Source: Luteimonas rhizosphaericola (GTDB lineage Bacteria > Pseudomonadota > Gammaproteobacteria > Xanthomonadales > Xanthomonadaceae). From it: a stretch of DNA of 64,000 nt. Of the stretch, positions 15,285-28,134 are shown piece by piece; within the stretch, counting starts at the first letter, position 1, and every line of letters begins with the position of its first letter. Both the position numbers and the translations under genes were made by a program. Below the pieces are notes generated by a model that had not been told where the DNA came from, did not search any database, and saw only the letters and a list, made by a program, of their open reading frames with translations. The DNA lies in contig NZ_JARXRN010000016.1 of the NCBI RefSeq assembly GCF_029888045.1, positions 186,001 to 250,000 of the forward strand. Reading direction: 5' to 3'.

Positions 15285-16541
15285 TCAGTCGTGGATGTTC
15301 CGCGTCTGCCCCTCGCCGCGCACCACGAACCGCTCCACCGTCAGCGCCTCCAGCCCCATCGGCCCGTAGGCGTGCAGGCGCGTGGTCGAGATGCCGATCT
15401 CGGCGCCCAGGCCCAGCTCGCCGCCGTCGCTGAAGCGCGAGGACGCGTTGACCATCACCACCGCGGAGCGCAGCGCCTGCACGAAGGCCTCGGCGACGGC
15501 GGGGTCGGGGGTGGCGATCACCTCGGTGTGGTCGGAACCGTGGCGATGGATGTGGTCGAGCGCCGTCTCCAGCGAGTCCACCACCCGCACCGCGATGACC
15601 AGGTCCAGGTACTCGGCGTCGTAGTCGTCCACGGTCGCTTCGCCCATGTCTGGCACGATCCCGCGCGCCGCGGCATCCCCGCGCAGCTCGACGCCATGCG
15701 CGCGCAGCGCGTGCGCCGCCCGCGGCAGGAATTCTTCCGCGGCGTCGGCATGCACCAGCAGCGTCTCCAGCGCGTTGCAGGCACTGGGGCGCGAGACCTT
15801 GCCGTCCACCAGCAGCCGCAGCGCCAGGGCCTGGTCGGCATCGGCGTGCACGTACAGGTGGCATACGCCCTTGTAGTGCTTGATTACCGGCACGCGGGCG
15901 TGTTCGGCGACGAACCGGATCAGGCCTTCGCCGCCGCGCGGGATGGCGAGGTCGACGATGTCGGTGAGCTGCAGCAGCTCGACCATGGTCTCGCGGCGCA
16001 GATCCTCGACGATGGTGAGCGCGGCCGCGGGCACGCCCGCCGCCTCCAGCGCCCGGTGCAGCGCCCGGGCGATCGCCTGGTTGGAGCGAATCGCCTCGCT
16101 GCCGCCGCGCAGGATCACCCCGTTGCCGGCCTTCAGGCACAGCGCCGCGGCGTCCGCGGTCACGTTGGGGCGCGCCTCGTAGATCATGGCCACCACGCCC
16201 AGCGGCGTGCGCACGCGTTCGACCACGATGCCGTTGGGGCGCGTCTCGCGCCGCGTCACCCGGCCCACCGGATCGGGCAGCGCGGCCACCTCGCGCAGGG
16301 CGTCGGCCACGCCCGCCAGGCGCGCGTCGTCCAGCCGCAGGCGATCGAGCATGGCCGCGCCGACGCCCTTGTCGCGGGCCGCGTCCAGGTCCTGCGCATT
16401 GGCCGCGAGGATCGCCGGCGCATCGGCCACCAGGGCGTCGGCCATGGCGCGCAGCATCGCGTAGCGATCTTCGGTGTGCAGCGCGGCGACGGCGCGGGAC
16501 GCGTCGCGGCAGCGCAAGGCAAGTTCCCGGATCTCACTCAT
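15285..16541 (-). CDS. proA: Gamma-glutamyl phosphate reductase
   Basis: This 418-residue enzyme of the aldehyde dehydrogenase superfamily reduces gamma-glutamyl phosphate to glutamate semialdehyde with NADPH for proline synthesis. The active-site Cys255 lies in [25 protein letters not shown], the glycine-rich ILRGGSEAI and the C-terminal [20 protein letters not shown] are family hallmarks. It follows proB by 93 nt on the same strand and closes the arginine/proline gene run. Confidence 0.96.
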
Positions 16542-16634: not shown

Positions 16635-17774
16635 CTAGACCAGCATCAGGTCGTCGCGATGGATGATGGTGCCGCCGTAGCTGTAGCCGAGCACGCCCTC
16701 GATCTCGCGCGAGTGGCGCCGTGCCACGCGGCGGATGTCGGCGGCCGAATACTGGCTCACGCCGCGCGCCACGCGCCGGCTGCCGCGCTCGTCGCGCAGC
16801 CAGACCTCGACCATGTCGCCGCGACGGAACTCGCCTTCGGCCGTGACCACGCCGCCTGGCAGCAGCGACGCGCCCTTCTCCACCAGCGCATTGGCCGCAC
16901 CGGCGTCGACGAAGATGCCGCCCGCCTCGGCCGGCGCGTTCTGCAGCCAGTGCTTGCGTACGGCCACGCGGCTGCGCAACGCATGGATGCGGGTGCCGCG
17001 CAGGCGGTCGGCCGCCAGGCCTTCGAGCACGTCGGCGCGGGTGCCGTTGAACAGCACCGTCGCCACGCCCGCCGCCGAAGCCCGCTGCGCCGCCTCGAGC
17101 TTGGTGCGCATGCCGCCGGTGCCGACGACGCTGCCCGAGCCTCCCGCTGCGGCCAGCAGCGTCGGCGTGAGCTTGGGCACCACTTCCACCGGCCGCGCAT
17201 CGGGGTTGCGACGCGGGTCGGCGTCGTACAGGCCGTCGATGTCGGTGGCGATGAACAGCACATCCGCATCCACCAGTGCGGCCACGATCGCGGCCAGGTT
17301 GTCGTTGTCGCCGAGCTTGAGCTCGTCCACCGAGACGGTGTCGTTCTCGTTGACCACCGGCACCGCGCGGTGGTGCAGCAGCGCCGACAGCGTGGCGCGC
17401 GCGTTGAGGTAGCGACGGCGGTTGCGCAGGTCGTCGTGGGTCAGCAGCACCTGCGCGACCTGGCGGTCCAGCAGGCCCTGCCAGAAGCCGATCAGGCGCG
17501 CCTGGCCGACCGCGGCGAGCGCCTGGCGTTCGGCCATCTCGGCGCCGTCGCGCGGCTGCTCGCGCAGGATCGCGCGGCCCGCGGCGACCGCGCCGGAAGA
17601 CACCACCACCACCTCGCGCCCGGCGCGGTGCGCGGCGACCACGAAGCCGGCGATCGCCTGCGCGTACTCGGTCGACAGTCCGCCGCCGTTGGCCGCCAGC
17701 AGGCTGCTGCCGACCTTGAGCACGGCGCGCCGCCAGGGCGGCAGCAGCTGTTCGGAGAAGGCGTGGGCGTTCAT
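16635..17774 (-). CDS. proB: Glutamate 5-kinase with C-terminal PUA domain
   Basis: This 379-residue enzyme phosphorylates glutamate, the first and feedback-controlled step of proline synthesis. The amino-acid-kinase domain (about 1-265) shows VLKVGSSLL, VVSSGAVAAG, VNENDTVSVDELKLGDND and GTGGMRTKLEAAQ. A PUA domain (about 290-379) ends it, starting around GIFVDAGAANAL. The ATG at 17774 is 4 nt after the yciI stop, so it continues the arg operon. Confidence 0.95.
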   Translation of the reverse strand: MNAHAFSEQLLPPWRRAVLKVGSSLLAANGGGLSTEYAQAIAGFVVAAHRAGREVVVVSSGAVAAGRAILREQPRDGAEMAERQALAAVGQARLIGFWQGLLDRQVAQVLLTHDDLRNRRRYLNARATLSALLHHRAVPVVNENDTVSVDELKLGDNDNLAAIVAALVDADVLFIATDIDGLYDADPRRNPDARPVEVVPKLTPTLLAAAGGSGSVVGTGGMRTKLEAAQRASAAGVATVLFNGTRADVLEGLAADRLRGTRIHALRSRVAVRKHWLQNAPAEAGGIFVDAGAANALVEKGASLLPGGVVTAEGEFRRGDMVEVWLRDERGSRRVARGVSQYSAADIRRVARRHSREIEGVLGYSYGGTIIHRDDLMLV

Positions 17775-17778
17775 GGCG

Positions 17779-18048
17779 TCAGCGTGCGTGCCAGGCATGG
17801 AGGGCAAGGTCCGACGCGCCCTGCGCGACCAGCGGATCGCGCGCGACCAGGGCCTGGGCCTGTTCCAGGCTGCCCACGCCGCGCAACAGGTAGGCACCGC
17901 CGCTGCGATCGGCGAACCCGCCACTCAGTTCCAGCAGGCCCTGCCCGCGCAACTCGTCCAGGAACGCGAGGTGCGGCGCCACGAGCGTCTCGTCGAAACC
18001 GGGCCGGCGCGTCAGCACCACGAGATACCGCAAGCCCGGCGCGTTCAC
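17779..18048 (-). CDS. YciI-family small protein
   Basis: This 89-residue ferredoxin-like-fold protein begins [21 protein letters not shown] and carries the YciI pattern [16 protein letters not shown]. Its GTG start overlaps the argH stop by 4 nt (GTGA). The family function is poorly known and no reaction is assigned. It is embedded between argH and proB. Confidence 0.8.
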
Positions 18049-19337
18049 AGTGCATCCCAGCGCGCCCGCAGCGCATCCAGCCGCAGGTCCGCCGCGGCGC
18101 CGGGCGAGGTGCGCGCGGCCAGGCTCGCTTCCGGCGTGCGCCCCTGCCCGGCGGACTCCGACGCGGCCGCGGCCGCGCGATAGGCCTCGCGGAACGGCAC
18201 GCCGGCGATGGCAGCTTCCACCGCCACGTCGGTCGCGTACATGCCGGCGTCGATCGCGGCGCGCAGGCGGTCCTCGCGCCACTCGAGGTTCGCCAGCAGC
18301 GCCGGCAGCAGTTCGAGTGCCGCCAGCCCGCGACCGAAACCGTGGAAGATCGCGCCCTTGGAAGCCTGCAGGTCGCGGTGGTAGCCCGAGGGCAGCGACA
18401 GCAGCTGTTCGATCTCGGTCCGCGCGGCGGCGACGCTGGCGTGGGTGGCCCGCATCAGCTCGATCACGTCCGGGTTGCGCTTGTTGGGCATGATCGAGCT
18501 GCCGGTGGTGTATTGCGCCGGCAGCGCGACGAAGCCGAATTCGGCGCTGGTGAACAGCGACAGGTCCCAGGCGATGCGGCGCAGGTCCAGCGTGGCGCTG
18601 CCCAGCGCCTCGAGCGCGGCGAGTTCGAACTTGCCGCGCGAAAGCTGCGCGTACACCGGCGAGACCTGCATCCGCGAAAAGCCCAGCGCGGCCGTGGTGT
18701 GCTCGCGGTCGAGCGCGAGGTTGACGCCGTAGCCGGCGGCGGTGCCCAGCGGGTTGCAGTCCACCAGCGCCAGCGTGTCGTTCGCGCGCACGGCATCGTC
18801 GATGAAGGCTTCGGCCCAGCCGGCCCACCACATGCCCGCCGAGGACACCACGGCGCGCTGCACGTGGGTGTAGCCCGGGATCGGCAGCCCGCGTTCGGCG
18901 CCGGCGCGATCGAGCGCCACTTTCGCCACCTCGCGCGAGAGCGCGGCCACCCGCGCCAGCTTCTCCTTCAGCCACAGGCGGGTGGCGACCAGCACCTGGT
19001 CGTTGCGGCTGCGGCCGGTGTGGATCTTGCGGCCGGCATCGCCCAGGCGCTCGGTCAGGCGCGCCTCGATGGCGGAATGGCCGTCCTCGAAGCGCTCATC
19101 CAGCACGAAGGCGCCGGCGTGGAAGTCGTCGGCGAGCGCGGCGAGCTCGCGCTCCAGCCCGGCCAGCTCGTCGGCCGACAGGATGCCCACGCGCTGCAGC
19201 CCCTGCGCATGCGCGGTGCTGGCGACGATGTCGTGCAGGAAGAACTCGCGGTCGAGCACCACGTCGTCGCCGGCCAGGAAGCGCTGGATCTGCGCATCCA
19301 CCGTGACGCCGGGCTTCTGCCACAACAGGTCGGACAT
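18045..19337 (-). CDS. argH: Argininosuccinate lyase
   Basis: This 430-residue fumarase/aspartase-superfamily enzyme splits argininosuccinate into arginine and fumarate. The signature [13 protein letters not shown], the [10 protein letters not shown] segment and GYTHVQRA are present. The ATG at 19337 ([10 protein letters not shown]) is preferred because GGAG lies upstream at the right distance. It is followed with a 4-nt overlap by the yciI gene. Confidence 0.96.
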
Positions 19338-19424: not shown

Positions 19425-20378
19425 CTACACCGGGATCGACGCCAGCTCGTCGAAGCCGAACGCGAGGTTGAGGTTCTGCATCGCCTGGGTCGCGGCGCCC
19501 TTGAGCAGGTTGTCGAGCGTGGCCACCACCACCAGCCGGCGCCCGCCCGGGGCCAGGGTGAAGCCGCCGATCTCGACCCCGTGTCGGCCGGCGATGCGGC
19601 TCACCCACGGCGCCTGGTCGACGACCGTCACCAGCGGCTCGCCGGCATAGCGCTCGCGGTAGCGCGCCTGCACCGCCTCGGGCGTCACCGGCGCGCGCAG
19701 GTGCAGGTTCACGGTCATGGTGATGCCGCGGAAGTGGGGCGCCACGTGCGGCATGAATTCGACCGGCGCGCCGAGCTGGCGGGTGACCTCGCGCTCGTGC
19801 AGGTGGTCGGCCAGGGCGTAGGGCATCAGGTTGTCGCGCAGCAGGGCGACGTCGTTCTTGTCCGACGGCGTGGTGCCGGCGCCGGAGTAGCCCGACACCC
19901 CGAAGCACTGCGCCGGCCCGTCCAGCAGCTCGCGCATCGGCGCGACCGCCAGCTGCATCGCGGTCGCGTAGCAGCCCGGGTTGCTGATCCGGCGCTGGCC
20001 GGAATAGCGCGCGCGGGTGAGTTCGGGCAGGCCGTAGTACCAGCCGTCATCGAAGCGGTAGTCCGCGGACAGGTCGACGACCACCGTCTCCGGTCGTGCC
20101 GCGTCCAGTGCCGCGACAAACGGCGCGGCCTTGCCGTTGGGCAGGGCCAGCACCACGGCGTCGGCACCGGCGGCCGCCACCGCGTCGGCATCCAGGGCCT
20201 GGAACCGCAGCGCGCCGGTGTAGCCGTCGTTATGGTCGGCGACCGGCTGCCCGTCGAGTTCGCGCGAGGACACGAAGGCGAGCTCGAACCGTGGATGGGC
20301 GGCCACCAGCCGGATCAGTTCGCGACCGGTGTGGCCGCGCGCACCGACGATGCCGAGGGAGACGGGAGCCTGGTTCAT
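19425..20378 (-). CDS. argC: N-acetyl-gamma-glutamyl-phosphate reductase
   Basis: This 317-residue NADP-dependent reductase makes N-acetylglutamate semialdehyde. The nucleotide-binding [15 protein letters not shown], catalytic Cys in SNPGCYATA, and [13 protein letters not shown] histidine region are clear. The ATG at 20378 overlaps the GNAT gene's stop by 4 nt; argH follows after 87 nt. Confidence 0.96.
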
Positions 20379-20989
20379 GCGTGCGCGTCCAGCCGGGCCT
20401 GCAGGTGCCGGCGCACCGCCAGCCATTCGGTATCGAGGATCGAGAACACCACCGTGTCGCGCAGCGAGCCGTCGGAATGGCGCTTGGCGTTGCGCAGCAC
20501 GCCGTCCTGCTTCGCGCCCAGGCGCGCGATCGCCGCGCGCGAGGCGTGGTTGAACCAGCTGGTCTCGAAGCTCACGTTCACGCAGCGCAGGGTGTCGAAG
20601 GCATGTTCGAGCAGCATGCGCTTGCATTCGGTGTTCACGCCGCTGCGCTGCACGCGCGGCGCGTACCAGGTGTAGCCGATCAGCAGCTTGGGCACCTCCG
20701 GTTCGAGGCCGTAGAAGCGGGTGCAGCCGACGATCGCGCCATCGGCAGCGCGCACCACGAAAGGCAGCTCGCGTCCCTGCGCCTGCGCCTCGAGCACCCC
20801 GGCGACGTAGGCGTCCACGCGGTCCGGCGCCGGGACGTGGGTGTACCACAGCGCGTCCAGGCCGCCGCCCTCGACCACGGCCCGCAGACCGTCGGCATGC
20901 GCGGCCTGCAGCGGTTCGAGCACAGCGTGGCGCCCGACCAGCCGCGGGACGCTGCGCCAGGGCGCGGGCAAGGCGTCGATGCCGGTCAT
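20375..20989 (-). CDS. GNAT-family N-acetyltransferase inside the arg operon
   Basis: This 204-residue acetyltransferase resembles the RimJ/RimL branch: [21 protein letters not shown] is the acetyl-CoA loop region and [21 protein letters not shown] the strand-helix after it. It is coupled by 4-nt overlaps to argB/A upstream and argC downstream. Its substrate is unknown. Because the preceding protein already carries an N-acetylglutamate synthase domain, it is not needed for acetylglutamate formation and may modify another amino group. Confidence 0.85.
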
Positions 20990-22317
20990 GGCAAAGCCTC
21001 CTGCAGCGTCGGCGGGCGCGTGGCGCAGTGCGCCACGCAGCGCTGGATGTCGGCGAAGGCCTCGATGCCGTACCAGAACACCTTCCACTTCTCCTGCTTG
21101 TAGCAGCCGTCGGATTCGGCGTAGTAGAAGATGTTGATCTGGTTGTTGTGGCGCGAGCGCCAGAACAGCTGCGGCGTCTCCTCGCGCATCACGTTCCAGA
21201 CCGCGCGGCCGAGCCCCTCGCCCTGGGCGTCGTCGAGCACCGCGAACTTGTCCAGGTACACCATGCCGTCGCCGTCGGTGAGGATCACCGCGGCGCGGTA
21301 GTTCTCGCTGACGTAGGCGCGCAGCAGCGTGGTGCGTTCGAAGTAGTCCGGCGCCAGCCGCCGGCCGAAGCTGCGCTCGATCAGGTCGCGCAGGCGGTCG
21401 CGGTCGAACGCGTCCCAGTCCGTGCCGCGCAGCACCTTCTCGCCGCGCCGGACCAGGGTGCCCGAGCCCTTGTGCGTGAACAGCTCCTTGGCCAGGTCCG
21501 CCGGGCGAGTGATCGAGACCGAGGATTCCAGCGGCAGGTTGTCGAGCAGGTCCTTGACCTGTTCGATCTTCACCCGCATGCCGCCGTTGATCCACGGCTG
21601 CTGCATGAGGTGCTCGTACTCGCTGGACAGGTTGATCGAATCGATCACCTGCCCGTCCGCGTCCAGCAGCCCGCCGGTGCCGGTGAGGAAGATGATCTTG
21701 TAGGGCTGCAGCACACGGACCAGCTCGTTGGCGGCGAAGTCGGCGTTGATGTTGAGGATCTGGCCGCCGGCGGTCTCGCCCAGGCTGGCGATGACCGGGA
21801 TCGAGCTGGCCTGCAGGCTGGCCTCGATCGGCGCCAGGTTGACCGCCCGCACCTCGCCCACCAGGCCGTAGGTGTCGCGGTCGAGGTACTCGGCCTCGAA
21901 CACGCCGCCGGTGATCGAGGTCGCGCGCGCGCCCGCCTGCTGCAGCGCCTCGACCAGGGTGAGGTTGGAGGCCTGGAACACGCGGCGCACGATCGCCAGC
22001 GCCTCGGGCGAGGTCACGCGCAGGCCGTTGACCGTCTGCTTGGCGATCCCGGCGGCCGAGAGCTCGGCGTCGAGCTGCGGCCCGGCGCCGTGCAGCACGA
22101 TCGGGGTCAGCCCCACTTCCTGCAGGAAGGTCAGCGACGAGGTCAGCGCCTCGAGGTCGTCGCGCAGCACCGCGCCGCCGACCTTGACCACGGCGAAGCG
22201 CTTGGCGTCGACCTGGGAGAAGCGCTTGAGGTACTGGCTGATCTCCTTCGCGCTGGCCATGCTCGAGAGCAGGCGCACGATGGTCTGCCGGGTCTGCCGG
22301 TTGGCGTCGATGTTCAT
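20986..22317 (-). CDS. argB: Fused N-acetylglutamate kinase / N-acetylglutamate synthase
   Basis: This 443-residue vertebrate-like NAGS/K has an amino-acid-kinase domain at about 1-290 ([59 protein letters not shown]). The acetyltransferase domain at about 300-443 ends in [25 protein letters not shown] and [15 protein letters not shown]. The xanthomonad family makes acetylglutamate and phosphorylates it, with arginine inhibition. The ATG at 22317 overlaps the argE stop by 4 nt. Confidence 0.95.
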
Positions 22318-23411
22318 GCGGATCCGAGGATGCGGCCGACCAGGCCGCCGTAGCGTTGCAGTTGATCCAGCGACACCCACTCGTCGGCGGTGTGGGCCTG
22401 GGCGATGTCGCCGGGGCCGAACACCAGCGCGGTCAGGCCGGCGGCCGAGAACAGCGAGGCCTCGGTCCAGAAATCCACCGCGTTGCCGACCGGCAGGCCG
22501 AGGTCCTCGGCCAGGTCGCGCGCCGCCAGCCGCCGCTCTTCGGCGGCCGCGACGTCCCCGCCGGGCAGCGAGGGGCCGCGGAAGGTCTCTTCGTAGGCCT
22601 CCAGCGCATCGGGCGCCGCGAAGCCGCGGAAGGTGGCGTGCAGCTGGTCGATGTCGTGCGAGGGCAGCGGGCGGAACCCGAAGCGCAGCTCGGCCGCGGG
22701 CGCGATCACGTTGGCCTTGATCCCGCCCTCGATCCGGCCGATGTTGAAGCGCAGCCCGGTCAGCCCACCGAAGCGGCGGTGCGATTCCTGCCCGACCAGC
22801 TCCAGCGCCCGCCCGCCCCAGCGCACCGCCTGGTGCAGCGCGCTGGCGTCCAGCGCGGCGGCGCCCGACGCATGCCCGGCCTCGCCGCGGAACGCCATCC
22901 GCACCGCGCTGATCCCGCGGTGGGCGAGCACCGCCTCGCAATGCGTGGGTTCGGCCACCACCACGTCGCGGAAGCCGTGGTCGCGGGCGAGGAAGGCGGC
23001 GATGCAACGGGCGTCGTTGGCCTCCTCGTCGCTGGTGAACAGGAACGCGGCGTCGCCCGGCCCCGCCTGCGCGGCCGCCAGCAGACCCGCGGCGGCGCCC
23101 TTGATATCGCAGGCGCCCAGGCCCGTCGCGCGCCCGTCGGCCACCCGCAGCACGTGCGGGTCCGCAGTCCAGTGCGGCGACGACGGCACCGTGTCCAGGT
23201 GCACGTTGAACAGCCGCGCCGGCGTGCCCCGCACCGCGAACAGCGACACCGCGCCTGCGCCATGGTCGAGCACCTCGACCTGGAAGTCCGGCAGCTGCGC
23301 GCGGATGTAGTCGAAGATCCCGCCGGTGCCGATCGCGCGCGGCGGATTGCGGGTGTCGAAGGACACCAGACGTTCGAGGTGGTCGAGGATGGGAGCGAGC
23401 AGGTCTGTCAT
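22314..23411 (-). CDS. argE: M20-family deacetylase, probably N-acetyl-L-citrulline deacetylase
   Basis: This 365-residue co-catalytic zinc peptidase-fold enzyme shows [26 protein letters not shown] and VVAEPTHCE metal and catalytic motifs, plus a dimerisation domain with a [10 protein letters not shown] strand. Next to an N-acetylornithine carbamoyltransferase, it should release citrulline from acetylcitrulline rather than ornithine from acetylornithine, as established for Xanthomonas campestris. It lies between argG and the argB/A fusion. Confidence 0.92.
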
Positions 23412-23483: not shown

Positions 23484-24689
23484 TCAGCGGTTGACCTCGG
23501 CCCACAGCGTGCTGCTCATCCCGAACAGCTTGATGAAGCCTTCGGCCTCCTCCACGCCCCAGTCGGCCGACTGCGCGTAGGTGGCGCCCTTGGAGTGCAG
23601 CAGGTGCGGCGACTCGATCGCCACCGCGTCCACCCGTCCGCCGCGGGTCTCGAGCACCACCTCGCCGCTGACCTTGCGCTGCGAGGACGCCAGGAACGCC
23701 TCCAGGTCCGCCTTCAGCGGGTCGTGGAAGAAGCCCTCGTACACCAGCTCCACCCACTTGCGCGCGACCTCGGGCTTGAAGCGGTTCTGCTGCTTGCTCA
23801 GCACCGCCTCCTCGAGCGCGCGGTGCGCGGTGAGCAGGGCCACCAGCCCCGGCGCCTCGTAAACGATCCGGCCCTTGAGCCCGATCACGGTGTCGCCGGT
23901 GTACATCCCGCGGCCGACGCCGTAGGACGCGAACAGGCGGTTGAGCTTGCCGAGGATCTGCTCGCCGGGCAGCGCCTTGCCGTCGAGTTCCACCGCCTCG
24001 CCCTGCTCGAACTTCAGGTGCACGGTCAGGGTTTCGGTCGGCCATGCGCTGCGCGGGGCGCACCAGCCGCGGGCGCCGTCGCCCGGCGTCTGCCACTGGT
24101 CGATCTCGCCGCCGGACATGGTCACGCCCAGCAGGTTCTCGTTGATGGTGTAGGCCTTCTGCTTGGCGCGCACGCCGAAGCCGCGCTCCTCCAGATAGGC
24201 CTGCTCGTACGCGCGGGTCTGGGTGTGCTGCTTCTGGATCTCGCGGATCGGCGCCACGATGCGGTAGTCGCCCTGCGACTTCACCGCCAGGTCGAAGCGC
24301 ACCTGGTCGTTGCCCATGCCGGTGCAGCCGTGGGCGATGGCGTTGGTGCCGAGCTCGGCCGCGCGCGCCAGCGCGGCGTCGACGATCAGGTAACGGTCGG
24401 ACACCAGCAGCGGGTACTGGCCCTGGTAGCCCTCGCCCGCCCACACGAAGGGCTTGACGAAGCCGCTCCAGATCGCGGGGCCGCCGTCGACGGTGCGGTG
24501 GCTGGCCACGCCCAGTTCCGCGGCGCGCTGCTCGATGAAGGCGCGCTCCTCGTCGTCGACGCCACCGGTGTCGGCGAACACGGTGTGCACGTTCCAGCCG
24601 CGCTCCTTCAGGTAGGGCACGCAGAAGCTGGTGTCGAGCCCGCCGGAAAAGGCCAGGACGATGTCGCGGGATTCGGTGGGGCTGGTCAT
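23484..24689 (-). CDS. argG: Argininosuccinate synthase
   Basis: This 401-residue enzyme joins citrulline and aspartate using ATP. The N-type pyrophosphatase loop [11 protein letters not shown] is at the start, followed by [13 protein letters not shown] and the C-terminal [22 protein letters not shown]. It follows argF' after 135 nt and precedes argE by 72 nt in the same direction. Confidence 0.95.
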
Positions 24690-24824: not shown

Positions 24825-25826
24825 CTATCGCACCAGTGCGGCCATGACCGCCTTCTGCACGTGCAGGCGGTTCTCGGCCTCGTCGATGGCGATGCACTGC
24901 GGGGAATCCATCACCGCGTCGGTGGCCTTGACGTTGCGGCGCAGCGGCAGGCAGTGGCTGAACACGCCGTTGTTGGTCAGCGCCATCTTGCGCTCGTCGA
25001 CGATGAAGTGCCGGTACTGGTCGCGGATCGGCTTCTCGGGCGCCCAGTTGCCGAAATACGGCAGCGCGCCCCAGCTCTTGGCGTAGACCACGTCGGCGCC
25101 GGCGTAGGCGCTGTCGATGTCGTGGCTCACCTGCAGCGAGCCGCCGCTTTCGGCGACGTTCTGCCGCGCCCAGCCCATGTAGCGCTCGTCGAGCACGTAC
25201 TCCGGCGTGGGGCACAGCAGGGTCACGTCCATCCCCAGGCGGGTGGCGATGGTCAGCGCGGAATTGGCCACCGCGGTGTTGAGCGGCTTGGGGTGGTAGG
25301 TCCAGGTCAGCACGTACTTCTTCCCGCGCAGGTCGGAGGTGCCGAAGTGCTCCTGCAGCGCCAGCGCATGCGCCAGCTCCTGGCAGGGATGGGTGATGGT
25401 CTCCATGTTGATGACCGGCACCGGCGAATACGTCGCGAACGACTTCAGCACCAGGTCCTCGCGGTCCTTGGCCCAGTCGACGAATTTCGGGAACGCGCGC
25501 ACGCCGATCAGGTCGACGTATCGTCCCAGCACCCGCGCCACCTCGGCGATGTGCTCCTCGGTCTCGCCGTCCATCACCGTGCCCAGGTCGAACTCGATCG
25601 GCCAGGCGTCCTTGCCGGGCTGCAGCACCACCGCGTGCCCGCCGAGCTGGAACGCGCCGAGCTCGAAGCTGGTGCGCGTGCGCATCGAGGGGTTGAAGAA
25701 CACCAGCGCGATCGAACGGCCCTTGAGCGCATCGCCGAGCTTCTCGCGCTTGAAGCGCGCGGCTTCGACCAGCAGCGCATCGAGGTCGGGACGGCTCCAG
25801 TCCTGCGTGTTCAGGAAGTGCTTCAT
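24825..25826 (-). CDS. argF': N-acetylornithine carbamoyltransferase
   Basis: This 333-residue transcarbamylase makes acetylcitrulline from acetylornithine and carbamoyl phosphate. It has the carbamoyl-phosphate site NPSMRTRTS and HPCQELAHA. The 80s-loop region (EFDLGTVMDGETEEH) and HCLPLRRNVKATDAVMDS, whose lysine (about K300) matches the carboxylated lysine of the Xanthomonas enzyme, separate it from ordinary ornithine carbamoyltransferase. The ATG at 25826 gives MKHFLNTQDW, the normal start. It is the first structural gene after a candidate attenuator. Confidence 0.95.
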   Translation of the reverse strand: MKHFLNTQDWSRPDLDALLVEAARFKREKLGDALKGRSIALVFFNPSMRTRTSFELGAFQLGGHAVVLQPGKDAWPIEFDLGTVMDGETEEHIAEVARVLGRYVDLIGVRAFPKFVDWAKDREDLVLKSFATYSPVPVINMETITHPCQELAHALALQEHFGTSDLRGKKYVLTWTYHPKPLNTAVANSALTIATRLGMDVTLLCPTPEYVLDERYMGWARQNVAESGGSLQVSHDIDSAYAGADVVYAKSWGALPYFGNWAPEKPIRDQYRHFIVDERKMALTNNGVFSHCLPLRRNVKATDAVMDSPQCIAIDEAENRLHVQKAVMAALVR

Positions 25827-25873
25827 CGGCGTATCCAGTTCCGGGAATCGGGGATCGAGAGGGTGCAGAAACG

Positions 25874-25898
25874 AAAAAACCCAGCCTCTGGCTGGGTT
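25874..25898 (-). terminator. Attenuator terminator in the argF' leader
   Basis: On the minus strand AACCCAGCC and GGCTGGGTT form a perfect 9-bp stem with a 3-nt loop followed by six T residues, an excellent intrinsic terminator. It lies 47 nt before argF' and 37 nt after a short Arg-rich reading frame. Its ascending arm can instead pair with GCTGGGTCC (25926-25934) just after that frame's stop, forming an antiterminator. Confidence 0.85.
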
Positions 25899-25935
25899 CC
25901 GGCATGACGGCAACGAACGTCCGGGGGACCCAGCT

Positions 25936-26031
25936 TCAGCGACAGGGATCCGGTCGACGCGCACGCGACGTCATCCCCGACGCCATGCGGGCGGAGGTCA
26001 GGATGTCGGCGTGGGCAAGGGCGTTGTTCAC
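25936..26031 (-). CDS. Candidate arginine leader peptide of the arg/pro operon
   Basis: A 31-codon frame begins at GTG (26031) with GAGG nine bases upstream and ends ...TSRARRPDPCR. Four of the last nine codons are Arg, including CGT and CGA, codons avoided in the surrounding genes. The stop codon is one base from the antiterminator segment. A CCGGATCCC stretch over codons 27-29 can pair imperfectly with the same segment. This fits a peptide whose translation senses charged tRNA-Arg. An internal ATG (25986) would give a 16-residue version but lacks a ribosome-binding site. Confidence 0.65.
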   Translation of the reverse strand: MNNALAHADILTSARMASGMTSRARRPDPCR

Positions 26032-26084
26032 GGCGCGAATCCTCGCACGCCGGGCCACCGAACTGCAACCGCAATCGGCTGGAA

Positions 26085-26591
26085 TCAGGGAGTTTCGCCT
26101 GAAACGACCGGCGTGACCGACACCCGCACCCGCAGGCGGTTGCCGGGATCGGCCGGCAGGCGGGAGCGGTACTTCACCCCGCGGTGCACGTAGTCCACGT
26201 CGAACGCGATCGGGCGCCGGAATTCGCGCTCCACCGGCACCATGCGGCACTGGCCGCCCGCCGAGGGCGCGACTTCCTCGACCTTGGGATCCGGCGTGAG
26301 CGCACCCTTCACCGCGCCGATGACGCGGGCGAACCCGGTGGGGTGCTCTTCGTCGTCCCGTACCGGGGTGGAGGCTTCGCAGCGCTCGACCATGCTGGTC
26401 GCGCGCAGGGTCTGGAACACCGGCTCGGCGCGCAGCACCTGGGCGTATTCCACCCGCACGTTCTCGGGCTGCTGCGCCGGAGCCGCTTCCTCGACGTCCT
26501 GCGCCAGCGCGTTCGCGGCGCACAGCATGCACGCGGCCGCGAGCAGCGGCCGCGCCAGCCAGGCGGTGATGGGCGTTCGGGCTCGGAACAT
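26085..26591 (-). CDS. Exported protein related to glycine-zipper envelope proteins but lacking the zipper
   Basis: This 168-residue precursor has a signal peptide ([21 protein letters not shown]). The segments [24 protein letters not shown] and [30 protein letters not shown] resemble the flanks of glycine-zipper 2TM outer-membrane proteins. In those, the two flanks enclose a GG-rich membrane hairpin; here only a short [13 protein letters not shown] remains. Function is unknown. It lies upstream of the arg leader on the same strand and diverges from cysS. Confidence 0.7.
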
Positions 26592-26757
26592 TGGCGACAG
26601 TGTAGGCGCTGGCGGCCCGCCGTCGGCTGAACCCGACCGCCTGCAGACGCGTCTGGAGCCGTGCCGGGTGGCTCGCGCGGCATGGGTCCAGGGCCGCCGC
26701 GCGTGCCGCGAAATCGCGCACGGCCTAGAATCGACGGTTTCCCGCCGCCGCGTGCCG

Positions 26758-28134
26758 ATGACCCTGCGCCTGTTCAACAGCCTGACCCGCCAGGTCGAAG
26801 CCTTCGCCCCGCTCGACTCGGCCTGCCCGACCATGTACCTGTGCGGGCCCACGGTCTACAACTTCGTGCACATCGGCAATGCGCGCGGCCCGGTGGTGTT
26901 CGGCGTGCTGGCCGCGCTGCTGCGCAGGCGCCACGGCGCGCTGCGCTACGCGCGCAACATCACCGACGTGGACGACAAGATCAACGCCGCCGCGCGCGCG
27001 GCCGGCGTGCCGATCGCCACGATCACCGACCGCTTCGCCGCCGCCTACCGCGAGGACATGGCCGCGCTCGGAGTGGCGGGCGATTTCGCGCCCGACATCG
27101 AGCCCGCCGCCACCGCCCACATCGGGCAGATGGTCGCGATGATCGAACGGCTGGTCGCGTCCGGCCACGCCTACGCGGCCGAGGGCCACGTGCTGTTCGC
27201 GGTGGACACCTTCGACAGCTACGGCCGGCTCTCGCGTCGCGATCCGGACGAAATGCTCGCAGGCGCGCGCGTCGAGGTGGCGCCGTACAAGCGCAACGCC
27301 GGCGATTTCGTGCTGTGGAAGCCCTCCGGCCCCGAACTGCCGGGCTGGGATTCGCCCTGGGGCCGCGGGCGGCCGGGCTGGCACATCGAGTGTTCGGCGA
27401 TGGCCGCCGCGCACCTGGGCGAGACCATCGACATCCATGCCGGCGGCGTCGACCTGCAGTTCCCCCACCACGAGAACGAGGTGGCGCAGAGCGAATGCGC
27501 GCACGGCGGGCGCGTGTTCGCGCGCACCTGGCTGCACAACGGCATGCTGACGCTGTCGGGCACCAAGATGTCCAAGTCGCTCGGCAACATCGAGAAGGTC
27601 CACGACCTGGTGCGCCAGCATCCGCCCGAAGCGCTGCGCTACGCGTTGCTGTCGGCCCACTACCGGCAGCCGCTGGACTGGTCGGACGGGCTGATCGAGC
27701 AGAGCGTGCGCACGCTCGACCGGCTCTACGGCACCCTGCGCGACCTGATGGATGTCGATGCGCAGGCCACGATTCCCGATGCGATCGAGTCGGCGCTCGA
27801 CGAGGACCTCAACACACCCGCGGCGCTGGCCGAACTCGCGCGCATCGCCGGCGAGGCCCGCAAGGCCGGCGACGACGTCGAACGCGGACGCCTCAAGGCC
27901 GAGCTGCTCGGCGCGGGCGCCGCGCTGGGCCTGCTGCAGCAGGCGCCCGCGGCGTGGTTCGCGCGCGGCGCCTCGGGCGACGACGATGCCCGCATCCAGG
28001 CCCTGGTCGACGAGCGCGCGACCGCCAAGCGGTCACGCGACTTCGCACGCGCCGACGCGATCCGGGACCAGCTCGCCGCCGAAGGCATCCTGCTCGAGGA
28101 CACGCCGCAGGGCGTGCGCTGGAAGCGGGCCTGA
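26758..28134 (+). CDS. cysS: Cysteinyl-tRNA synthetase
   Basis: This 458-residue class I synthetase charges tRNA-Cys. The HIGH-type motif reads [13 protein letters not shown]. Zinc ligands include [15 protein letters not shown] and [13 protein letters not shown], and the KMSKS loop is TKMSKSLGN. The ATG at 26758 starts [12 protein letters not shown], the expected N-terminus, although no strong ribosome-binding site is visible. The C-terminal helical anticodon region is complete. Confidence 0.96.

Follow-up and report, generated by a model that had tools for sequence, protein, structure and literature searches.

A probable arginine-responsive transcription attenuator in front of the arg(-pro) genes of Luteimonas and its relatives

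Introduction

The attenuators of the trp, his and leu operons of enteric bacteria combine a leader peptide containing codons for the end product of the pathway with competing 2:3 and 3:4 hairpins. In terms of sensing, the closest known system to the locus described here is orf34 of Salmonella speF, a short upstream ORF in which two adjacent Arg codons make the pausing of the ribosome and the refolding of the mRNA respond to arginine (PMC6386406). Control by arginine is listed under the T-boxes, not the attenuators, in the available passages of PMC1262725; Xanthomonas and Stenotrophomonas are absent from the available passages of PMC8632094, and a term search of the main text of Naville and Gautheret 2010 (PMC2965389) returned no argF, argC or arginine. 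No arginine attenuator of the clade to which Luteimonas belongs was found in searches of openly licensed PMC papers. Here, we compare with these systems a leader found upstream of argF' in Luteimonas rhizosphaericola.

Results

Layout of the leader and of the genes behind it

The window, the whole stretch of 64,000 nucleotides that was analyzed, carries behind the leader, all in one direction, argF', argG, argE, argB, an acetyltransferase-like gene, argC, argH, a YciI-like gene, proB, and proA (Table 1), and the genes from argF' to proA presumably form a single transcript. Upstream of argF', a 31-codon frame on the minus strand encodes the peptide VNNALAHADILTSARMASGMTSRARRPDPCR, whose C-terminal end is TSRARRPDPCR. 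Its stop is followed on the same strand by GCTGGGTCC, then by GGAACCCAGCC-AGA-GGCTGGGTTTTTT, and then by argF' from 25826, the element as a whole spanning 26031-25874. The terminator stem is perfect over its 9 bp (AACCCAGCC-AGA-GGCTGGGTT, 25898-25878), and its T run ends at 25874.

Table 1 Features of the leader and of the downstream genes in the window.
Feature	Coordinates	Strand	Details and evidence
Leader-peptide ORF, probably leaderless	25936..26031	-	GTG 26031-26029, 31 codons, TGA 25938-25936; sequence, codon-level conservation, 5' end of the Xoo5 homologue
Regulatory codons CGT-GCG-CGT-CGA	25954..25965	-	Arg23-Ala24-Arg25-Arg26; core with CGA in 70/70 protein-anchored loci
Segment 1, CCGGATCCC	25945..25953	-	Codons 27-29, imperfect pairing with segment 2; sequence, pairing statistics weak
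Segment 2, GCTGGGTCC	25926..25934	-	One base 3' of the stop; sequence, family comparison
Segment 3, GGAACCCAGCC	25890..25900	-	Common to antiterminator and terminator; sequence, shuffles, family comparison
Intrinsic terminator, segments 3 and 4	25874..25898	-	9-bp stem and T run; terminator scan, covariation
-35-like TTGCAG (inferred)	26063..26068	-	18 nt 5' of the -10; sequence, T-rich -38/-37 from the start codon in 185 leaders
Extended -10 TGC-GAGGAT	26039..26047	-	7 nt 5' of the start codon, includes GAGG 26044-26041; sequence, TGn in 84/110
argF', N-acetylornithine carbamoyltransferase	24825..25826	-	NF003384, 635.8 bits, cut-off 288
argG, argininosuccinate synthase	23484..24689	-	Profile search
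argE, acetylornithine deacetylase	22314..23411	-	Profile search
argB, acetylglutamate kinase	20986..22317	-	Start approximate; NF003386, 898.6 bits
argC	19425..20378	-	Start approximate; TIGR01850
argH	18045..19337	-	Start approximate; TIGR00838
proB, glutamate 5-kinase	16635..17777	-	Start approximate; TIGR01027
proA, glutamate-5-semialdehyde dehydrogenase	15285..16541	-	NF001221

This layout agrees with an earlier note made from the letters of the window: re-reading the sequence returned the same GTG-started frame with its stop at 25936 and its TSRARRPDPCR end, with segment 2 one base after the stop and segment 1 over codons 27-29 on the minus strand, and a scan of both strands of 25800-26150 returned the perfect 9-bp terminator at 25874-25898 as the sole terminator there (one found, against 0.3 expected in shuffles). 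No sigma-70 promoter was matched at the scan threshold upstream of the leader in the window, and the whole 171-nt leader has no unusual folding stability (z 0.18). The search for T-boxes and known riboswitches gave no Rfam match in 25000-27000 on the leader strand except RF02242.

Distribution of the leader

Carbamoyltransferase matches were found in 296 of the 297 genomes of the own family. From these, 70 loci were taken (the 30 best transcarbamylase matches and 40 picked for genus spread among the matches listed, the own locus included), and upstream of argF' every one of them has the Arg-Ala-Arg-Arg core, including a CGA codon, together with a terminator. A covariance model (R1) built from 47 of these 70 protein-anchored leaders matched 293 of the 297 family genomes (three weakly) and, at E<=1e-3, 319 of the 398 genomes of the order, where the weak matches are not all real. 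The strong matches in the order include a second large family, f12 (E ~1e-16 to 1e-25), and members of f2 and f3. As a class-wide sample also gave 29 weak matches (the best at 1.1e-6) among the 271 genomes left once three of the own family are set aside, weak matches alone were not accepted as leaders; those outside the order, and three inside it (L118, L122, and L123), resemble chance terminators or tRNA and were not counted.

Of 270 loci, 34 were dropped for want of a Ser-Arg-Ala-Arg-Arg core before a recognizable argF', being diverged leaders, contig ends, or chance matches, or, at L051, lacking a recognized argF' motif. The resulting 187 unique leaders include 77 that were picked by a core pattern forcing TCG, CGY, CGA, and CCG; the remaining 110 make up the unbiased set. 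One contig titled Bacillus subtilis SK7B5 (L230) carries a Stenotrophomonas-like leader and argF', and its assembly is probably mislabelled or contaminated. In an f7 genome (L276, G302), the leader stretch is doubled before argF' with N after the first copy, which is either a duplication or an assembly fault.

The alignment of upstream regions from relatives that the earlier note had suggested as a check found the frame, its Arg codons, and the alternative pairing all conserved, as detailed below.

The leader peptide changes in a coding manner up to an Arg-Arg pair

Codon changes were counted in 31 dissimilar leaders that remained after clustering, with the pattern-chosen ones excluded. Over codons -6 to 4 around a conserved Ser, the differing codon pairs were synonymous in 1576 cases and non-synonymous in 547, whereas over the five codons 3' of the Arg pair the corresponding numbers were 137 and 1804. 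Change is therefore mostly silent up to the Arg pair and mostly non-silent after it, meaning that selection at the protein level ends at the Arg pair, and the comparison points to a leader ORF that is translated.

The codons CGY, GCN, CGY, and CGA occupy the core in all 66 unique protein-anchored leaders, and CGG is present at none of the three Arg positions; R3 is likewise CGA in 41 of 44 model-found leaders. By comparison, the 252 Arg codons of the operon include only 4 CGA and 48 CGG. In Salmonella, CGY and CGA are read by the same tRNA species, CGA being the slowest, so a stall at this pair should be sensitive to charging; by analogy, one tRNA would decode CGY and CGA in this clade as well. 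The Ser codon before Arg23 (25968-25966) is TCG in 65 of the 66 unique protein-anchored leaders, while the adjacent codons vary silently.

In the leaders read from f1, f2, f3, and f12, the peptide hardly varies over some ten residues preceding Arg26. The leaders read from f4, f7, f8, f9, and f10 encode unrelated peptides except for their Arg clusters, for example RRLRRP, RRNRRR, or RRRRR. Together with L111 of f1, the 16 leaders of these five families make up a set of 17 further leaders, 16 of which have adjacent Arg residues, the exception being L111 with Arg-Ala-Arg. Their adjacent Arg codons are CGC (34), CGA (20), CGT (11), and CGG (1), to be set against a rough, motif-anchored background of CGC (118), CGG (63), CGT (34), AGG (17), CGA (15), and AGA (7) at the starts of the genes behind them.

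Sensing of proline was considered as well, as the operon holds proBA. The Arg pair is kept in 70/70 loci, but the residue after Arg-Arg varies: it is Pro in 177 of the 187 leaders (77 of which were picked by a pattern demanding Pro), Arg in 4, Leu in 3, and Cys, Thr, or Met once each. Proline was accordingly rejected as the conserved signal, other residues replacing it in leaders where the Arg pair stays. Because several diverged leaders retain Arg-Arg-Pro, proline may still play a minor role.

Alternative pairings of the spacer and the terminator

The terminator is present in 187/187 unique leaders. Its positions are paired in all 329 cells of the alignment, and 22 of the pairs are changed on both sides, a result reached by none of 500 shuffles, with pair types not raised. 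For the 2:3 pairing, 89.9% of the cells are paired in the 47-leader alignment, where the covariation score is weak (reached by 108 of 500 shuffles) and the number of pairs changed on both sides is matched by 23 of 500 shuffles. In the 90 of the 110 unbiased leaders whose stop lies 13 codons from the conserved Ser, seven of seven 2:3 pairs form in 80. At one middle position, segments 2, 3, and 4 of these 90 leaders read T/A/T in 60, C/G/C in 16, T/G/C (a wobble) in 5, G/G/C (a group with shifted pairing) in 5, and C/A/T (a mismatch) in 4; most of the C/G/C leaders come from f12, so that the joint change reflects few independent events. An AT-rich leader of f8 (L282), whose peptide contains Arg-Arg-Asn-Arg-Arg-Arg, has CCAGGTT, AACCTGG, and CCAGGTT as its segments 2, 3, and 4, all three changed yet complementary.

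The complementarity of the spacer to segment 3 was equalled by 1 of 100 shuffles in the window; in 156 of the 187 leaders, five shuffles or fewer in 100 did as well (77 of the 187 being pattern-chosen; mean z over the 187, -2.77). The corresponding values for 35 dissimilar leaders were 27/35 and a mean z of -2.52. Replacing segment 3 by a foreign one gave, on average, equal or better pairing with the leader's own spacer in 11 of 51 leaders, a swap that is a weak test because most leaders share ACCCAGC. The 1:2 pairing was evaluated in two registers, with 79.1% and 63.6% of cells paired and covariation scores reached by 94/500 and 0/500 shuffles, respectively; the 1:2 hairpin is plausible and is the least supported of the three pairings. 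Overall, the competition of segment 2 with segment 4 for segment 3, put forward for the window, turns out to be kept across families, with weak 2:3 covariation in the first alignment.

The stop codon lies 13 codons from the Ser, inside segment 2, in 57 of 66 protein-anchored leaders. In the window, it is codon 10 from the Ser, just 5' of segment 2, where a ribosome still covers segment 2. The ribosome was assumed to cover 13 nt, counted from the first base in the A site. On this footing, the modeled probability of the window's terminator is 0.003 with CGT25 in the A site, 0.19 with CGA26, 0.96 at the stop, and 0.42 without a ribosome. In the E. coli trpL control, the same model gave 0.94-0.97 for the terminator in every state. 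At equilibrium, the terminator was disfavoured under a stalled ribosome in 13 of 187 leaders (12 of the 110 not pattern-chosen), so that, as for trp, the outcome must depend on which hairpins fold first while the RNA is being made. Equilibrium folding was therefore set aside as a test of the switch, not being decisive where the trpL control fails likewise.

A loose rule, which asks for a short ORF with Arg-Arg before a terminator, was passed by 52 of 63 real regions, compared to 202 of 1040 terminator-keeping shuffles and 20 of 1260 full shuffles. L109 (a misplaced cut) and L111 (without Arg-Arg) were scored as misses here, and L280 of f9, which passed with a terminator that does not look real, was excluded from the swap test. 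As shuffles often satisfy the rule, single diverged leaders are not strong evidence alone.

The leader mRNA probably starts at or near the start codon

The stretch 5-10 nt upstream of the start codon was searched for the best -10-like hexamer, which has TGn in front of it in 84 of the 110 unbiased leaders. The -10 score was 5.0 at the start, 2.3-3.0 at seven of eight shifts, and 4.2 at +12, a profile favoured by the leader starts themselves having been picked by the best -10 score. In the 17 further leaders, ATG follows a -10-like hexamer at a distance of 6-10 nt, and visual inspection showed no GGAG, GAGG, or AGGA in the interval. A Shine-Dalgarno reading of GAGG was considered and found unlikely, Shine-Dalgarno-like tetramers being present in 49 of 185 leaders and GAGGAT as a -10 in 47 (counts that are not cross-tabulated).

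In Xanthomonas oryzae, the 5' end of sRNA-Xoo5 has been mapped by RACE, and Northern blots show it as a discrete RNA (PMC3039613). It is located between PXO_00354 and PXO_00353, the latter given in Table 4 of that paper as N-acetylornithine carbamoyltransferase; bands of ~130 and ~100 nt were both seen early, the ~100 nt band alone was seen late, and cloning placed the 3' end at nt 124 (PMC3039613). The Rfam family RF02242 made from it matched the window over its full length at 33.2 bits, against a gathering score of 50, and exceeded that score in four of eight chosen relatives (L156, L185, L157, and L007, with L282, L274, L135, and L010 below it). The RF02242 model has 124 positions and ends before segments 3 and 4, and its equal length suggests that the first model position is the RACE end. 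In two Xanthomonas homologues, the Rfam match begins with CT-ATG, which would place the 5' end 2 nt before the AUG, and encodes MQANAFQHDTSAARMASGMTSRARRPESHIFAG.

Hence, the leader mRNA is probably leaderless, with transcription from the start codon or from within a few bases of it. The earlier note had taken GAGG as a ribosome site, which does not hold up well: these letters probably belong to the -10, and Xoo5 starts downstream of them. A start downstream of 25936, which the same note had named as speaking against its proposal, is not what was reported, the 5' end of the Xanthomonas oryzae homologue falling at the leader start codon.

From the 5' end to the end of the T run, the two Xanthomonas homologues measure ~159 nt, which is longer than the Xoo5 bands; the gap might be due to processing of the RNA or to pausing of the polymerase behind the 1:2 hairpin. 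The RF02242 'sRNA' family corresponds to the argF' leader without its terminator and could be re-annotated and extended. For another small RNA, sRNA-Xoo1, deletion reportedly reduced argininosuccinate synthase and N-acetylornithine carbamoyltransferase, which are encoded by the first two genes of the operon (PMC3039613).

The leader and ArgR look like alternatives

ArgR (PF01316) had no match in the own genome; a control search found a match in 9 of 14 known genomes. Of the 121 genomes sampled from the order, 8 (all from f11) gave an ArgR match and 113 gave none. In each of the six f11 genomes examined, ~1.2 kb separates ArgR from a transcarbamylase that is 39-44% identical to that of the window (L285-L290), and no leader was present at any of these six transcarbamylases. 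The leader and ArgR look like alternatives, a picture into which f5 and part of f9 do not fit: no leader was seen in the upstream regions of argF' at L272 (f5), L281 (f9), and L283 (f9). The f9 genome G304, whose argF' without a leader is L281, carries a leader with RRPRR and a terminator (L124) ~5 kb downstream before an argB-like gene, so named by its resemblance to the argB of the window.

A proposed mechanism and its alternatives

We consider it very likely, on the strength of these comparisons, that the element is a ribosome-mediated transcription attenuator of the trp/his/leu type before the arg(-pro) genes, with arginine as its regulatory amino acid. This reading is based on the coding-type change, the Arg pair, the alternative pairings, the gene context, and the lack of an ArgR match, which holds for the own genome and for 113 of the 121 genomes sampled from the order. 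The arginine attenuator first suggested for the window alone has thereby gained support, its Arg pair, frame, and alternative pairing being conserved in relatives.

In the mechanism that we propose, transcription would begin at about the leader start codon, and a ribosome would load at the 5' end of the leaderless mRNA. When Arg-tRNA is ample, this ribosome would pass CGY-GCN-CGY-CGA, reach the stop in or beside segment 2, and cover segment 2; segment 3 would then pair with segment 4, and RNA polymerase would stop before argF'. When Arg-tRNA is short, the ribosome would stall at the Arg-Arg pair and cover segment 1, allowing segments 2 and 3 to pair, so that the terminator would not be formed in time and the arg(-pro) genes would be transcribed. 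Stalling, the coupling of transcription with translation, and read-through under arginine starvation are all predictions from the sequence.

It is extremely unlikely that the element is instead the trans-acting small RNA Xoo5, as classed by Rfam and its discoverers, with its position before argF' being incidental. A named sRNA seen as a discrete RNA by Northern blot and 5' RACE does speak for this class, but the RNA begins at the start codon of a leader whose codons change in a coding manner, the element stands before argF' in 70/70 loci and, in a single f9 genome, before an argB-like gene, and the Rfam model stops before the terminator. The released leader could also act in trans. Nor does a constitutive terminator behind a chance or decaying short ORF, with the arg genes set by promoter strength only, seem at all probable. 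The terminator does dominate equilibrium folding, as this would have it, but neither the coding-type conservation, nor the conserved Arg pair, nor the joint change of the three segments agrees with it.

The near-invariant stretch before Arg26 in the f1, f2, f3, and f12 leaders suits another explanation, a ligand-induced arrest in which the nascent A-x-G-M-T-S-R-A-R peptide, still within the ribosome, would itself respond to arginine or a related metabolite instead of the stall reporting charged tRNA. Some ten near-invariant residues are more than is usual for attenuator leaders. However, this motif is absent from the 16 leaders read in f4, f7, f8, f9, and f10, all with adjacent Arg codons, and an arrest by abundant arginine 5' of the stop would cause antitermination when arginine is plentiful, the opposite of what a biosynthetic operon needs, which makes peptide arrest very unlikely.

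A more ambitious version of the attenuator reading, which we regard as possible but rather doubtful, holds that an order-wide arginine attenuator replaces ArgR, is leaderless, reports one tRNA-Arg isoacceptor via CGY-CGA, and has its stall tuned by the AxGMTSRAR peptide in four families. If such tuning in the ribosome tunnel were true, the leader would mix a sensor of tRNA charging with an arrest peptide.

Discussion

If the attenuator reading is correct, it would provide an arginine control for Xanthomonas, Stenotrophomonas, and their relatives, in an order with ArgR in just 8 of 121 sampled genomes, and a Northern-verified 'small RNA' would be an operon leader. Classical attenuation would also gain arginine as an end product, here in a leaderless version, and the argF' leader would offer a test case for how one slow codon and one isoacceptor set the sensitivity of an attenuator. 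Ribosome-mediated attenuation itself is classic; an arginine-specific, leaderless, order-wide member for arginine biosynthesis was not found in searches of openly licensed PMC papers.

Several described systems share parts of the design. RF02242 (sRNA-Xoo5) is the same element, classed there as a small RNA, with no leader role given in the available passages of PMC3039613. The cysteine-rich uORFs of mycobacteria resemble the argF' leader in using codons for the amino acid of the pathway, in being proposed as attenuators, and in coming from a paper on leaderless mRNAs (PMC4633059), but they concern cysteine and another phylum, and their roles are speculative according to the authors (PMC4633059). 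The carA leader of Pseudomonas is similar in having a leader peptide in P. aeruginosa, a proposed attenuation, and a gene serving arginine synthesis, but the attenuation is ascribed there to pyrimidines, and control by arginine is separate (PMC4997734).

Salmonella orf34, although likewise built around two adjacent Arg codons, controls an ornithine decarboxylase gene and relies on Rho, on RNase G, and on hiding the ribosome site of speF, without an intrinsic terminator of an arginine operon in the passages available (PMC6386406). It also has a Shine-Dalgarno site and a different peptide core, unlike the argF' leader (PMC6386406).

The argF' leader has in common with the trp, his, and leu attenuators a leader peptide with end-product codons, competing 2:3 and 3:4 hairpins, an intrinsic terminator, and a biosynthetic operon. 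It differs from them in its dedication to arginine, its probably leaderless mRNA, the peptide motif before the regulatory codons in four families, and a nearly fixed CGA.
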